64,000 bases of DNA from assembly GCF_013410065.1 (NCBI RefSeq), contig NZ_JACCCW010000001.1:1-64000 (forward strand). Reading direction: 5' to 3'. The position numbers and the translations under genes were made by a program. This document shows, piece after piece, positions 27,826 through 32,913 of the stretch. Every line of letters starts with the position of its first letter. The first letter of the stretch is position 1. Origin of the DNA: Granulicella arctica. GTDB lineage: Bacteria > Acidobacteriota > Terriglobia > Terriglobales > Acidobacteriaceae. The notes under the pieces are model-generated. The model made no database searches and had not been told where the DNA came from. It saw nothing but the letters and a program-made list of their open reading frames with translations.

Positions 27826-27845
27826 AGAGGGCAAATACCCTTTTT
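27826..27845 (+). terminator. Candidate pckG terminator
   Basis: AGAGGG-CAAATA-CCCTTT followed by TT, 43 bases past the pckG stop. Short stem with one G-T pair. Confidence 0.4.
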
Positions 27846-27859
27846 CAGGCCATTTTCTA

Positions 27860-27888
27860 TTGACTTTGGTCTAGCAGGGAGGTTACTC
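27860..27888 (+). promoter_or_regulatory. Sigma-70-like promoter of a candidate small RNA
   Basis: TTGACT, a 17-base spacer and TTACTC (or TACTCT with 18). It follows the pckG terminator and precedes a hairpin-rich stretch with no convincing protein-coding frame. Confidence 0.5.
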
Positions 27889-27895
27889 TAAATGA

Positions 27896-28003
27896 ATGGC
27901 GAGACTCCCTTCGGGTTGAGTCGGTCATAACGAAGTCCACCCACTTCGTTGCTTTACTGGAACACCCACGCATCAGCCCCCACCGCGCTGCGTGGGTTTC
28001 CAT
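27896..28003 (+). ncRNA. Candidate structured small RNA or leader RNA
   Basis: Three hairpins follow the promoter. First, GACTC and GAGTC enclose CC-TTCG-GG, a stable UUCG tetraloop. Second, AACGAAGT-CCACCC-ACTTCGTT forms a perfect 8-bp stem. Third, ACCCACGCA and TGCGTGGGT form a 9-bp stem followed by TTCCATTTT, terminator-like. The only short frame (12 codons from 27892) is unconvincing. The third hairpin shares the block ACCCACG(C/T)ATCAGC with the attenuator hairpin 220 bases downstream, so one may derive from the other. It could be an independent RNA of about 110 nt or the 5' end of the transcript into the cysteine-rich leader. Confidence 0.4.
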
Positions 28004-28033
28004 TTTAAGCGGACCTTTTTGGCAGCCGTCAGC

Positions 28034-28062
28034 TTGACGACTTGGACGAAACCCTCTAACCT
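28034..28062 (+). promoter_or_regulatory. Promoter placing the transcript start on the leader-peptide ATG
   Basis: TTGACG and TAACCT with a 17-base spacer. The expected transcription start, seven bases after the -10 box, is 28070, which is the A of the leader-peptide ATG. The mRNA would thus be leaderless. Confidence 0.5.
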
Positions 28063-28069
28063 CAACTTC

Positions 28070-28153
28070 ATGGGATTGATGCGCATCGCGGCCTGTACCT
28101 GTTGCCCTTGTTGTATGGGCACATGCTGCTGCGTCGGTTCAATCCTGTCTTAG
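28070..28153 (+). CDS. Polycysteine leader peptide (27 aa)
   Basis: A 27-codon frame, start ATG and stop TAG, starting MGLMRIAACTCCPCCMG and containing eight cysteines among residues 9-21, including CC, CC and CCC runs. No Shine-Dalgarno sequence precedes it, and a promoter positioned to start transcription at the ATG makes leaderless translation likely. A terminator hairpin lies 38 bases after its stop and 26 bases before the next ATG. Polycysteine leaderless short frames that act as cysteine-responsive attenuators are known in mycobacteria; that this one does the same is an inference. Bases 28125-28138, covering the CCC codons, can pair with 12 of 14 bases of the terminator's left arm, offering a possible antiterminator. 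It is followed by a small membrane protein and a YeiH-family transporter, a family linked to sulfur oxyanions. Confidence 0.65.
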   Translation: MGLMRIAACTCCPCCMGTCCCVGSILS

Positions 28154-28189
28154 GCGAATAAGTACAACACGACCTTAGAAAATCTCAGG

Positions 28190-28234
28190 AACCCACGTAT
28201 CAGCGCAGAGCGCGATATGTGGGTTTTTTCTTTT
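28190..28234 (+). terminator. Attenuator-like intrinsic terminator between the cysteine leader and its operon
   Basis: ACCCACGTAT pairs with ATATGTGGGT (one G-T), with an inner GCGC-AGA-GCGC stem, followed by TTTTTCTTTT. It lies after the leader stop codon and just before the ribosome-binding site of the next gene, the classical place for an attenuator. Confidence 0.8.
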
Positions 28235-28259
28235 GCCCGCACCTCACACAGGAGTCATC

Positions 28260-28385
28260 ATGGCAATCCAAGAACATACTTCGAAGGCGTCATCTCGATT
28301 CAATGTCGACTTTCTCGCTATCGGCATTGCGTTGACGCTGGCTGCGCTGATCCGCTTCAATCTGCTTCCGCAGATCAAGTGGTAA
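28260..28385 (+). CDS. Small membrane protein (41 aa) upstream of the YeiH transporter
   Basis: A 41-residue product starting MAIQEHTSKASSRFNVDFLA, with one membrane helix at about 17-36 (DFLAIGIALTLAALIRFNLL) and the ending PQIKW. The ribosome-binding site AGGAG is strong, six bases from the ATG, so this is very likely expressed. It is the first gene after the attenuator and ends 18 bases before the transporter start. A subunit or regulatory role for the transporter is plausible from position only. I know no family for it. Confidence 0.65.
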   Translation: MAIQEHTSKASSRFNVDFLAIGIALTLAALIRFNLLPQIKW

Positions 28386-28403: not shown

Positions 28404-29492
28404 GTGTCCACCCATACCATTCCGATCTCCGCAAAACCGCCATCCCTGACTGCGCGCTTTATTCAGACGCTGCCGGGAATAGCGCTGCTGTTTGCAATCG
28501 GCCTGCTGGGCAAGCTGCTGGAACATCTGTTTACCGTCCTGCGGGTGAGCTACCACCTGCTGATGCCGCAGATTGAGTACGTTCTCTGGGCCATCATCCT
28601 TGGATTGATCATCAGCAATACCGTCGGCGTCGGGCGCATCTTTCGCCCGGGCGTCGCAACGTACGAGCTCTGGCTGAAGCTGGGCATCGTTCTGATTGGT
28701 GCCCGATTCCTGATGCAGGATGTCCTCCATATCGGCGGCCTTTCGCTGGGCCTTGTCGCGGTGGAACTGATCCTCTCGCTCTCGGTGATGACGCTGCTGG
28801 GCCGCATCTTCAACCTGCCGCCGAAACTTACCAGCCTGCTCGCCATCGGCAGCTCGATCTGCGGCGTTACTGCGATCATGGCCGCGCAGGGAGCGATCGA
28901 GCCGGAAGAGGAAGACACCTCGACGGCGATTGCAGCCATCCTGACGCTGGGAGCGATTGCGCTGTTTACCTTCCCTGCCATCGGACATGCCCTACACATG
29001 GGCGACCAGGCATATGGGATGTGGGCCGGGCTTGCAGTCGACAACACCGCCGAGGCCACGGTCACGGGAGCCATCTACTCCGACACCGCCGGGCGCTTCG
29101 CGGTGCTTGCAAAGACAGCACGATCCTCTTTCATCGGGTTCGTGGTGCTGGGTTATGCGATCTACTGGTCGTCGCGGGGACAGGCTCCGAACGTGAAGAA
29201 CAAGGCCGCATTCCTGTGGCAGAAGTTCCCCAAGTTCATCCTCGGCTTCATCGCCATCTCGATTCTGGCGACAGCGCACTTCTTCACCGCTCCCCAGCTC
29301 ACCAGTCTTTCGAACCTCTCACGCTGGGCCTTTCTTCCTGCATTTGCTGGTGTCGGTCTACGTACAAATCTGCGCGATCTTGTGGGTCAGGGATGGCGAC
29401 CGCTGATCGTCGGTATCCTCGGTGAGATCTTTATCGCGCTGATCACGTTGGGGCTTGTCTACTGGAGCTACAACCACGGGGTGCCACGATGA
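28404..29492 (+). CDS. YeiH-family putative sulfur-oxyanion exporter
   Basis: Inner-membrane transporter of the YeiH/Cons_hypoth698 family, annotated by homology as a putative sulfate exporter; the substrate has not been firmly established. The 362-aa product has about ten membrane helices, with the family signatures GLIISNTVG (near 70), KLGIVLIGARFLMQDVLH and the central SSICGVTAIMAAQGAIEPEEEDT followed by AVDNTAEATVTGAIYS. The GTG start is 18 bases after the stop of the 41-aa gene and has a weak ribosome-binding site, so it may be translationally coupled. The polycysteine leader upstream suggests control by cysteine supply. A 21-codon frame overlaps its stop as ATGA (see rejected items). 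Confidence 0.85.
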   Translation: MSTHTIPISAKPPSLTARFIQTLPGIALLFAIGLLGKLLEHLFTVLRVSYHLLMPQIEYVLWAIILGLIISNTVGVGRIFRPGVATYELWLKLGIVLIGARFLMQDVLHIGGLSLGLVAVELILSLSVMTLLGRIFNLPPKLTSLLAIGSSICGVTAIMAAQGAIEPEEEDTSTAIAAILTLGAIALFTFPAIGHALHMGDQAYGMWAGLAVDNTAEATVTGAIYSDTAGRFAVLAKTARSSFIGFVVLGYAIYWSSRGQAPNVKNKAAFLWQKFPKFILGFIAISILATAHFFTAPQLTSLSNLSRWAFLPAFAGVGLRTNLRDLVGQGWRPLIVGILGEIFIALITLGLVYWSYNHGVPR

Positions 29493-29652
29493 CTCCCGAC
29501 CGTTTTATCCGCATGATCATGGCCTTCCCTTCCACGAACTGCTGTCGCCCCTAGACAAGAGCCAGCTCCAGAACACCCTCGTCCCTACGCACAATCCAGC
29601 AAATCTCATGAGCCGCAAACAAGCGTGCCGTCCTATTCCTTCAGGAGCTCCA

Positions 29653-32600
29653 ATGATCCGCATCACACGTACACCTTTGACTCTTTTCGCGGTACTTCTC
29701 GCCAGCCTGCTTGCTCTCTTTCTTGCTCTTCCCTCCGAGGCCCAAGTCGTCGGCGGAACACTCTCCGGCAGCATCACCGATACGAGCGGAGCAGCCCTCG
29801 CCCATGCGACGGTGCTCGTCCACAACGATGAGACCGGCAATGAGCGTCGTCTGCTGACAGGCGCGGATGGCCGCTACGCCGCGCCCTCCATTCCGGTTGG
29901 GACATACACCATCTCTGCCCAGGTAGCGGGTTTCACTGAGCAGCGGCTCACAGGAATTCCGCTAACTGTAGGTGAGAGCAAACAGATCGATCTGCAGCTT
30001 GGCGTGAACACGGTCGCACAGCAGGTGACCGTTGTCGATACGCCCGCCATCGTCAATCTCTCAACGCAGCAGACCTCCGGCCTCGTCGACGAGCGGCAGA
30101 TCAAGCAGCTTCCACTGAACGGTCGCAGCTATGATCAGTTGCTCACACTGAACCCCGCGACGGTAAACTATACGGGCCAGCGCTCCGGTTCGATTGGGAC
30201 ATCCAACTCCTCCGTCGGCAACATGTTCGCTGTCTCGGGACGCCGCCCACAGGACAACCTTTTTCTGCTCAACGGTATTGAGTACACCGGCGCTTCGCTC
30301 ATCAACGTCACGCCCGGTGGCACAAGCGGTCAGTTGCTCGGCGTCGATGCAGTACGTGAGTTCAACGTTCTCGCCGATACTTATGGAGCCAACTACGGCA
30401 AACGGCAGGGCGCGCAGATCTCAATCGTAACTGCATCCGGCACAAATCAAATTCATGGATCGGTCTACGAATTTCTTCGCAACTCCGCACTGGATGCTCG
30501 CAACTACTTCGATCAGCTCTCGCAGACTTCGGGTACAAGGCTTCCCGAATTCCAGCGCAACGACTTCGGCGCATCGCTGGGCGGGCCAATCAAGAAAGAC
30601 AAGCTACTGCTCTTCGTCAACTACGAGGGCTATCGCCAGAACCTTGGCCTGAGCGATGTAACGTTCGTTCCCGACAGCAATGCACGACTTGGCCTTCTAC
30701 CGAATCCGGCGAACCTTAGCGGGCCGCTGAAGAACTATGGCGTAGCAACCGGTGTGGCACCGCTGCTGAATCTATGGCCGACGCAGAATGGGCCGGAGCT
30801 GACCGACGCGAAAGGAAATCCGACGGGCATCGGGCTCGCCTATTCCAGTCCGATGCAGCATATTCGCGAGGACTTCGGCACGACGCGCTTCGACTACAAC
30901 ATCAGCCCCAGCGATCTTTTCTTCGCAGCGTACACCATCGACGACTCGCTCGCGAATACGCCGACACAAAATCCGCTCGCGCTTATCAACGAGACGCTAC
31001 GCGAGCAAGTGCTGAGTGCTCAAGAGCAACATGTTTTTTCTCCGCACCTGTTGAACACGGCCCGCTTTGGCTTCTCGCGTGCGTCGTTCTACTTTGTAGG
31101 ATCAACTCCGGTGGACGTCCCGGGCTGGGTGCAGGGCAAGACGATCGGTGCCATTGTCATCGCGGGAAGTACCGCGTCGAATGGCTCCTCGCAGATCACC
31201 GGAGCGGGCGGCAACGTCGGTTCAAACAACGCGACGACGCGCAACCTGTTCACCTTCGACGATCACATCTTCTGGAGTGTTGGACGCCATCAGATCGAAG
31301 CAGGCGGCTGGCTGCAACGGTTGCAATCGAACGACAACCTCGCGCAGAATCAGGATGGGCAAGCATCCTTCTCTACATTGACAACTTTCCTGCAAGGCAC
31401 GGTTGCCACCTTCACCGTTGTTCCCGCTCCTACCGAACTAGGCTGGCGCTCGTGGATGGGCGCAGGTTATGTCGAGGACACGGTACATCTCACGCCGCGC
31501 CTCGAAGCTCGCATTGGCGTTCGCGTCGAATCGACGAATGGATGGAATGAGTCCCAGGGCCGCGCCTCCAACTATCAGTTCACCGACGGCATCATCAATA
31601 CGACCCCATTCACCGGAAGCTCCGCACTGACCGACAATCGCGCAAAGTTTCTTCCTGAGCCGCGCGCGGGGCTCTCGTGGGCACCGTTCGCCAACGGCAA
31701 GACCTCGGTGCGTGCGAGCTTCGGGCTGCATCACTCGCTGCTCGATAATCTCGACTATCGGCTCGACCAGACGGCTCCGTATAACACCACGCTCTCGTTG
31801 AAAAACGTTGCTGTCTCGAGCCTCGATATCACATCGCAGACCAAGGCCTCGGCAGGTTCGCTGATCTCGCCGTCGAACGTGCAGCCGGACATCGCGACAC
31901 CAACCGTGCTGGCATGGACGCTAAAGGTAGAGCAGGAGATCTTGCCGAACACCTCACTCACCGTGGGCTATGTTGGCTCGCACGGCTATCACCAGATTCT
32001 CTCCGAAGACCAGAACGAGCCTGCCTCCATCATCACCAATGGCGTGGTCTATTTCCCGACGGTCATCAAGGCGAACCCTGCGGTTGCTAACACTACTTCG
32101 TGGGTGTCCCAGGGTATCAGCAGCTACAATGGCCTGGAGGTGGACGTACGCCACAACCTCTCGCACGGCTTACAGCTTCGCGGAAATTACACATGGTCGA
32201 AGAATTTGGATGACGGCTCGGCGTGGAACACCAGCGTCAGTGCCAACACGCCAGCCTTCGTTTCGTATCCGGCACATCCGAAGCTCGACTACGGACCTTC
32301 GGCTGCGGATGTCCGCAACATCGTAGCCATCAATGGCAGCTACGATCTACCCTTCGGACGCAGCCATGCACTTGGATCAAGCCTGAATCCGCTGCTGAAT
32401 CGCGCGGTCTCCGGTTGGACGTTGAGCTCTATCGCAACGCTGCAATCGGGCTTCCCATTCTCGCCGCAGCTCGGCTATAACCCGACGGGCAGTGGCGACA
32501 CGCGCAACCCAGTGCGACCTTCGGTTAATCCTAACTACACTGGCAAGCGCTACCCGCGTACACCGACTAAGTGGTTCGACTCCACTGCGTTCATCGCTCC

Positions 32601-32913
32601 GGCCTATGGAACGCTCGGCAATCTGGGACGCGATACGCTAGTCGGACCGGGCGTGGCTAACCTCGACCTGTCTCTGGCGAAGTCCACCCAAGTCACCGAA
32701 CGGGTTCGTGCCCAGTTCCGCGCCGAGTTCTTCAACGCGCTCAACCACACGAACTTCGCCACTCCAAACGAGGTCGTCTTCTCCTCCGGGCCAACGCAAG
32801 GTACGACGGCAAACCAGACCGCTGTAGCCGTCGCATCGCCGACTGCTGGCGTCATCACGGCAACCTCCACCAACTCGCGGCAGATCCAGTTTGGCCTGAA
32901 GCTGCTGTTCTAA
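29653..32913 (+). CDS. Oar-like TonB-dependent outer-membrane receptor
   Basis: Large outer-membrane beta-barrel transporter (1,086 aa from this start). The ATG at 29653 has AGGAG five bases upstream and gives a Sec signal ending SEAQ; the frame is open further upstream but without a good start. After the signal comes a carboxypeptidase-regulatory-like beta-sandwich (about 25-105, GTLSGSITDTSGAALAHATV), then a plug (LPLNGRSYDQLLTLNPA, FAVSGRRPQDN, FLLNGIEYTG) and a long barrel. The C-terminus ends LKLLF, typical for barrel assembly. Such receptors are greatly expanded in Acidobacteria; the substrate is unknown. It begins 160 bases after the YeiH gene with no terminator between, so co-transcription under the cysteine leader is possible but unproven. 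Confidence 0.88.
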   Translation: MIRITRTPLTLFAVLLASLLALFLALPSEAQVVGGTLSGSITDTSGAALAHATVLVHNDETGNERRLLTGADGRYAAPSIPVGTYTISAQVAGFTEQRLTGIPLTVGESKQIDLQLGVNTVAQQVTVVDTPAIVNLSTQQTSGLVDERQIKQLPLNGRSYDQLLTLNPATVNYTGQRSGSIGTSNSSVGNMFAVSGRRPQDNLFLLNGIEYTGASLINVTPGGTSGQLLGVDAVREFNVLADTYGANYGKRQGAQISIVTASGTNQIHGSVYEFLRNSALDARNYFDQLSQTSGTRLPEFQRNDFGASLGGPIKKDKLLLFVNYEGYRQNLGLSDVTFVPDSNARLGLLPNPANLSGPLKNYGVATGVAPLLNLWPTQNGPELTDAKGNPTGIGLAYSSPMQHIREDFGTTRFDYNISPSDLFFAAYTIDDSLANTPTQNPLALINETLREQVLSAQEQHVFSPHLLNTARFGFSRASFYFVGSTPVDVPGWVQGKTIGAIVIAGSTASNGSSQITGAGGNVGSNNATTRNLFTFDDHIFWSVGRHQIEAGGWLQRLQSNDNLAQNQDGQASFSTLTTFLQGTVATFTVVPAPTELGWRSWMGAGYVEDTVHLTPRLEARIGVRVESTNGWNESQGRASNYQFTDGIINTTPFTGSSALTDNRAKFLPEPRAGLSWAPFANGKTSVRASFGLHHSLLDNLDYRLDQTAPYNTTLSLKNVAVSSLDITSQTKASAGSLISPSNVQPDIATPTVLAWTLKVEQEILPNTSLTVGYVGSHGYHQILSEDQNEPASIITNGVVYFPTVIKANPAVANTTSWVSQGISSYNGLEVDVRHNLSHGLQLRGNYTWSKNLDDGSAWNTSVSANTPAFVSYPAHPKLDYGPSAADVRNIVAINGSYDLPFGRSHALGSSLNPLLNRAVSGWTLSSIATLQSGFPFSPQLGYNPTGSGDTRNPVRPSVNPNYTGKRYPRTPTKWFDSTAFIAPAYGTLGNLGRDTLVGPGVANLDLSLAKSTQVTERVRAQFRAEFFNALNHTNFATPNEVVFSSGPTQGTTANQTAVAVASPTAGVITATSTNSRQIQFGLKLLF

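Follow-up and report, generated by a model that had tools for sequence, protein, structure and literature searches.

The window analysed here comprises 64,000 nucleotides (positions 1–64,000) of contig NZ_JACCCW010000001.1 of the soil acidobacterium Granulicella arctica (assembly GCF_013410065.1). Within it, a gene for a YeiH-family membrane protein is preceded by a small gene encoding a 41-residue one-helix membrane protein and, further upstream, by a short open reading frame rich in cysteine codons (Table 1). Direct reading of the sequence confirmed what the original prediction had stated for this frame, namely 27 codons including eight Cys codons, no ribosome-binding site and a promoter whose expected start is the ATG itself. 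The ATG at 28070 lies 7 nt past the -10 hexamer TAACCT, no Shine-Dalgarno (SD) sequence is found upstream of it, and the encoded leader peptide reads MGLMRIAACTCCPCCMGTCCCVGSILS, followed by the stop codon. The strong terminator predicted after the frame is present as well, at a distance of 33 nt past the stop codon rather than the 38 nt given originally, and the SD, the 41-residue gene and the transporter-family gene follow in the expected order.

Table 1. Features of the yeiH locus. Coordinates are positions in the window.
Feature	Coordinates	Strand	Remarks
RNA-like element upstream of leader promoter	27860–28012		own promoter and own terminator
Sigma-70-type promoter	28034–28062	+	-35 TTGACG 28034–28039, 17-nt spacer, -10 TAACCT 28057–28062; read from sequence
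Predicted transcript start	at or within one base of 28070	+	expected from promoter position
Leader-peptide frame, predicted to be leaderless	28070–28153	+	27 codons, 8 Cys, clusters CTCC, CC, CCC; kept in 22/22
Segment 1 (protector), codons 5–8	28082–28093	+	pairs with third Cys cluster in naked RNA (MFE fold)
Segment 2, third Cys cluster GCTGCTGCGTCGGTT, predicted antiterminator strand	28125–28139	+	pairs with 28190–28204
Small hairpin over leader stop codon	28152–28176	+	28152–28155 with 28173–28176
Intrinsic terminator	28187–28235	+	left arm is segment 3 (28190–28204), right arm is segment 4
SD AGGAG	28250–28254	+	precedes 41-aa gene
41-aa one-helix membrane protein gene	28260–28385	+	SD upstream
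YeiH-family (PF03601, UPF0324) membrane protein gene	28404–29492	+	GTG start
Second Cys frame MTPDRFIRMIMAFPSTNCCRP, followed by stop	29489–29554	+	ATG overlaps yeiH stop (ATGA); precedes receptor gene
Outer-membrane beta-barrel gene, carboxypeptidase-regulatory-like domain (PF25183, PF13620)	29653–32913	+	

The YeiH-family protein passes the gathering score of PF03601 (245.6 bits, cut-off 24.5), whereas its score against TIGR00698 is below the cut-off (108.4 versus 232.6 bits). The latter places it in a divergent clade, so that sulfate or sulfite as a substrate is not established. Relatives in the PDB were not found at E≤1. The 41-residue protein has no match in Pfam or NCBIfam; in 79 of 80 named loci a small gene with a hydrophobic tail, recognized by a simple pattern, lies ahead of yeiH, and the protein may regularly accompany YeiH proteins of this clade. 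Inspection by eye of loci from other Acidobacteria (L111, L122, L127, L140 and L149) placed the small gene and yeiH directly after a gene resembling uroporphyrinogen-III methyltransferase of siroheme synthesis. Several of the 42 more distant named loci in which a Cys-run frame was not recognized by pattern lie, by eye, behind such a siroheme-synthesis-like gene and have no leader. If correctly assigned, this neighbour would link YeiH to sulfite reduction.

In the window, yeiH adjoins the outer-membrane receptor gene, with the second Cys frame, which ends in TNCCRP before the stop codon, situated at the junction. The end of yeiH could be located in 32 of 45 loci; by raw count, 23 of these 32 have a short frame with a terminal CC run behind it, and 14 of the 23 frames start overlapping the yeiH stop codon. 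The second frame is possibly a translationally coupled Cys sensor. At two other loci (L125, L139) the order appears by eye to be reversed, the small gene and yeiH lying directly behind the end of an outer-membrane-receptor-like gene.

The leader promoter matches the consensus at 8 of 12 bases, and a generic promoter and terminator scan listed neither this promoter (scan threshold 9/12) nor the terminator at 28187. Over both strands of the window together, seven short ORFs (8–60 residues) have at least five Cys codons and a CC pair, and only the frame at 28070 has -35 and -10 hexamers at leaderless spacing. This geometry recurs among relatives. In 31 non-redundant leaders, from which L084 and L100 were omitted as near-duplicates, the best-scoring -35 contains TTGAC in all 31, a 17-nt spacer occurs in 30, and 27 have a gap of 6–8 nt between -10 and start codon, the best site having been chosen with the -10 forced to TAnnnT, a gap of 4–11 and a spacer of 15–19. 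SD-like letters precede 2 of the 31 leaders versus 26 of the 31 small genes that follow. From this conserved promoter-to-start geometry the start codon is predicted to form the 5' end of the transcript. The available text of PMC3160421 gives an average of 13.3% predicted leaderless genes for three acidobacterial genomes.

A YeiH protein search over 81 genomes, 80 of them from relatives and one being that of the window, yielded 22 close copies including that of the window; the others are 77–82% identical and one of them is a fragment. A lack of conservation of the Cys codons in relatives had been named beforehand as one of the findings that would refute the prediction, but the codons proved to be conserved. 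All 22 close orthologues carry the Cys frame upstream, Cys is invariant at alignment columns 13, 14, 17 and 18, and three further columns are Cys in 19, 21 and 21 of the 22 sequences. Insertions and deletions comprise whole codons. For 215 of 230 pairs dN is lower than dS, with a median ratio of 0.50, which supports coding by the frame and would also be expected if it encoded a functional small Cys-rich protein. Such a protein is nevertheless highly improbable, since the frame varies in length and flanking residues, Cys codons are gained or lost through insertions, and most Cys codons hardly vary at their third base, which points to a role of the RNA. Differences at the three codon positions number 1331, 1756 and 1790; that the third position is hardly freer than the second speaks against a plain protein-coding reading and also counts against the attenuator model. 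The near fixation of the Cys third bases and the small excess at third positions indicate that the RNA sequence itself is constrained.

Within a collection of named species genomes, which overlaps the 81-genome set in part, the leader module is carried by 23 of the 24 closest loci (73–82% identity), whose titles name Granulicella, Edaphobacter, Terriglobus and unplaced Acidobacteria; the exception, L093, lacks both leader and small gene. Of 399 genomes sampled from the class, 22 matched a leader profile; 21 of these belong to the same family, and the remaining match, elsewhere, is weak. The yeiH motif stands behind 19 of the 23 profile matches, and among the four matches without it, L176 is a locus of genome G012 already known to carry yeiH. 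Among the 56 more distant named loci, a Cys-run frame was recognized by pattern in 14 and not in 42, at least six of which show a differently built Cys frame by eye. In a second yeiH clade (58–66% identity) the frames are mostly different ones, often with CCC[SR] directly before the stop codon, and in 13 of 28 examined loci of this clade such a frame has a -10-like hexamer 6–10 nt before its start. The core pattern TGYTGYCYNTGYTGY was dropped as a search key for leaders due to lack of specificity, as it matches 77 of the 81 genomes. Taken from the sequences, the form in which the module is conserved suggests a cysteine gauge that would turn the operon on when cysteine is short.

A second element lies just upstream of the leader promoter. 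It spans about 115 nt, has its own TTGACT..TACTCT promoter and its own terminator, and is predicted to form three hairpins whose loops are C-rich; it looks like an undescribed small RNA. DNA matches were obtained in 46 of the 81 genomes, all among the 49 of the window's genus, with one match per genome except for three in G031, and the element is also present in genomes without class-1 yeiH. Nearly identical alignment was seen for 27 of 30 fetched copies, the three loci lacking an exact 14-mer having been dropped, which favours similarity. No Rfam family reached its gathering score anywhere in the 64-kb window, and the element itself has no Rfam match. At a relaxed threshold, a ctRNA match over the terminator hairpin (search of 27840–28260; E 0.094, 19.9 bits, cut-off 50) was taken as chance. 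The element ends in a CCCACG..CGTGGG terminator similar to that behind the leader, which might suggest that the Cys frame is a chance frame beside a terminator of the upstream small-RNA type; given the conservation in 22 of 22 close orthologues, with constraint on both codons and geometry, this is almost certainly not the case.

The hairpin of the leader terminator starts at 28187 and its U-tract runs to about 28235. Folding of the 166-nt stretch that contains it gives -64.5 kcal/mol, with a z of -4.6 and a stability reached by 0 of 200 shuffles. In the alignment of 22 sequences, 98.8% of cells are paired in the terminator stem, with changes on both sides at two pairs (in 7 and 2 sequences). 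The small hairpin over the stop codon has 95.5% of cells paired and both-side changes in relatives at three of its four pairs; in the window itself one of the four is a C-C. Together, the two hairpins show 97.9% paired cells and both-side changes at five pairs, and 0 of 500 shuffles reach either the paired percentage or the covariation score. Further leader copies likewise display the terminator by eye and in folds. It forms the strongest structure of the full RNA, which implies that any switching would have to be kinetic.

Regarding the switch, the original prediction had proposed that the CCC codons of the leader pair with the left arm of the terminator as an antiterminator, a proposal with evidence on both sides. 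The pairing of segments 2 and 3 exists, with a best duplex of -19.7 kcal/mol. Covariation, however, was not detected (84.6% of cells pair, versus 84.3% in shuffles), and the duplex is rarely stronger than synonymous leaders would give, falling below their 5% level in only 1 of 22 sequences. Nonetheless, cognate segments pair better than swapped ones, at -18.46 versus -17.55 with 1 of 2000 permutations as good (30 leaders, L101 being left out of this swap test only), and two other parts of the leader show no such effect. For segments 1 and 2 the values are -20.19 and -18.50, with 0 of 2000 permutations as good (31 leaders), and the 1:2 duplex weakens to -16.5 on synonymous recoding (31 leaders); in both permutation tests the relatedness of the sequences is retained.

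The consequences for termination were modelled on the RNA up to the left arm of the terminator, with the RNA upstream of the ribosome kept and the pairing of the arm with the leader as the measure. In 31 leaders this pairing was 0.36 for naked RNA; it rose to 0.74 when a ribosome occupied the first Cys codon and was 0.35 when the ribosome stood at the stop codon. A ribosome on the third Cys cluster gave 0.36 (30 leaders) and one on the last Cys codon of the second cluster only 0.49 (31 leaders), the latter indicating that only the earliest Cys codons switch well. The stalled state exceeded the stop state in all 31 leaders and the naked state in 27, while in 4 of the 31 the gain over the naked state is slight or absent. 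When whole leaders were recoded synonymously the mean gain was abolished, falling from 0.384 to 0.014 (60 sets; sd 0.031, maximum 0.105), and recoding of the Cys codons alone reduced it to 0.248 (40 sets). Since shuffled or swapped terminator arms keep most of the gain (0.32 and 0.33), the information for the switch appears to reside mainly in the leader, in segments 1 and 2. An occlusion model in which the RNA was cut upstream of the ribosome, with means of 0.00 for a ribosome at the stop codon and 0.73 for one at the second cluster, was set aside because the cut removes real pairing partners, and was replaced by the uncut model.

Similar Cys frames occur elsewhere in the same genome. A PF01077 gene (sulfite/nitrite-reductase domain, C2:1128438) is preceded by MSFSCNRRAVACRHCCCPCATSALHRFLD and a stop codon, with TTGACG-17-TAGCCT-7-ATG upstream and a terminator hairpin. 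A PF01507 gene (C1:1973262), called cysD-like because the next frame resembles CysN by eye, is preceded by a GTG-started frame with CCCQSCCC. The -10 of this frame lies six nt before the start codon, its -35 is poor, and a clear terminator was not seen. The other PF01077 locus of this genome (L189) has no such Cys leader. In relatives, a short Cys-cluster frame lies upstream of 17 of 30 PF01077 loci and 15 of 18 PF01507 loci, as judged by a loose pattern with some unconvincing cases and, for PF01507, leaving out 12 of 30 loci (L237–L248). A -35 of 5/6 or better at 17–18 nt was found at 11 of the 30 PF01077 loci. For the PF01077 leaders the predicted switch is weak, with values of 0.41, 0.52 and 0.27 in the naked, stalled and stop states (10 of 12 leaders; L202, where no terminator was seen, and L186 were left out). 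Six further Cys frames gave no NCBIfam match. By eye, a frame readable as MIRFCCPAGRPIQCKSLRSKHTLPTPAQHLCCCCR with a following stop codon precedes a porin-like ORF near C1:1083115 of the window's own genome (L031, about 1409–1515); a -10 at leaderless spacing was not found for it.

Clusters of Cys such as CTCCPCC could bind metal, and the nascent peptide might thus sense metal or redox state in the manner of arrest peptides instead of cysteine supply. The peptides before yeiH, before the PF01077 and PF01507 genes and in the second yeiH clade share little beyond their Cys runs, and the genes behind them fit sulfur assimilation, which makes this reading very unlikely.

With both Cys codons in the leader and an intrinsic terminator between leader and gene, as in attenuators of the trp type, the element is probably a cysteine-responsive transcription attenuator in which translation of the leader peptide begins without an untranslated leader. 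Comparison across relatives shows the frame, its conserved Cys codons, the promoter-to-start geometry and the covariation of terminator and stop hairpin, and folding predicts the 1:2/2:3 switch; from these we infer the start site, that the frame is translated, what the stop hairpin does and that low cysteine activates the operon. According to this model, the earliest Cys codons would serve as sensor and the third cluster as antiterminator in a classical 1:2, 2:3, 3:4 scheme. Transcription would start at or beside the AUG, so that a ribosome loads at the 5' end independently of an SD. When Cys-tRNA is scarce, the ribosome would stall on the early Cys codons (from codon 9) and cover segment 1, leaving segment 2 free to pair with segment 3; the terminator would then not form and the operon of small protein and yeiH would be transcribed. 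When cysteine is plentiful, the ribosome would reach the stop codon, open the stop hairpin and mask the end of segment 2 or, alternatively, depart and let segment 1 pair again with segment 2, and in either case the terminator could form.

Leaderless polycysteine short ORFs are reported to act as attenuators in mycobacteria, in work attributed to Canestrari et al. (2020), and the original prediction carried their principle over to an acidobacterium. Conserved Cys frames, among them contiguous Cys codons kept across species, leaderless spacing and similar frames before genes of the sulfur-assimilation type speak for the transfer. Mycobacterial ORFs of this kind are also treated in the accessible parts of PMC9031893, PMC9094748 and PMC13236596, and the contiguous Cys codons, the position ahead of sulfur genes and the occurrence of several copies per genome are common to both groups, as the leaderless start predicted here would be. 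Phylum, target (here the YeiH family) and peptide, in contrast, are different: against NCBIfam NF042933 (Ms5788A family) the leader scores 12.8 bits (cut-off 45, E 0.073) and is not a member. The transfer falls short in a second respect, in that PMC13236596, in the portion available, describes the mycobacterial systems as translation attenuation and PMC1262725 describes them as lacking obvious terminators, whereas the acidobacterial leader has a covarying one and trp-like folding. The leader is therefore mycobacterial-like in principle and not homologous.

By analogy to that description, the Cys frame could sense cysteine and act on translation of the small gene, or act via Rho, the hairpin being an ordinary or a passive terminator. 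The frame before the cysD-like gene, which has no clear terminator, and the weak switching of the sulfite-reductase-type leaders agree with this. At yeiH, however, there is a covarying intrinsic terminator behind the frame, this terminator does not include the SD of the small gene, and synonymous recoding abolishes the predicted switch, so that we regard such a mechanism as unlikely and prefer transcription attenuation.

Further leaders invite comparison, as far as their sources describe them. Actinobacterial cys operons are likewise preceded by short Cys-run frames (PMC1262725, in the part accessible), but with the Cys runs near the stop codon and no obvious or conserved terminator, whereas yeiH class 1 has early Cys clusters and a covarying terminator hairpin. 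The uORFC-8-2 of Rhodobacterales, located ahead of cysS, also combines Cys codons in a short frame with an intrinsic terminator, and ribosome-mediated attenuation has been proposed (PMC8632094, available text). It differs, in a comparison by description, in its two tandem Cys codons, usually at positions 14–15, and in gene (cysS, not yeiH) and class; the leaderless start predicted here goes unmentioned in that portion of the source. Regulatory codons are shared with attenuators of the trp type, for example that proposed for ilvB1 of M. tuberculosis (PMC13236596, same portion), and the predicted antiterminator would, as there, be mutually exclusive with the terminator, whereas in the acidobacterial case cysteine would be sensed and the leader peptide is predicted to be leaderless. 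A cysteine leader in acidobacteria was not found among open-licence PMC papers.

As for the regulated gene, Salmonella YeiH confers resistance to sulfite according to the available part of PMC12880088, a role which, by analogy, would not obviously call for induction at low cysteine. If yeiH is induced along with sulfate assimilation, its product could act in import of a sulfur oxyanion or as a safety valve for sulfite, and its service to cysteine supply is what the leader would lead one to expect. The YeiH family is poorly understood, and the leader offers a way into its regulation; the member here appears to belong with cysteine supply. With somewhat better than even confidence, we propose that Acidobacteriaceae run much of their sulfur supply via leaderless polycysteine leaders, which arose independently of the actinobacterial ones and precede the cysD-like cluster, the sulfite-reductase-type gene, the gene pair for the YeiH-type transporter and its small membrane protein and, perhaps, genes for outer-membrane receptors and a porin; one class, that of yeiH and perhaps the sulfite-reductase type, would be a leaderless trp-type attenuator with the last Cys codons as antiterminator. 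If true, leaderless initiation would be joined to classical transcription attenuation, and one short element would suffice to test how a ribosome at the 5' terminus is coupled to RNA polymerase.
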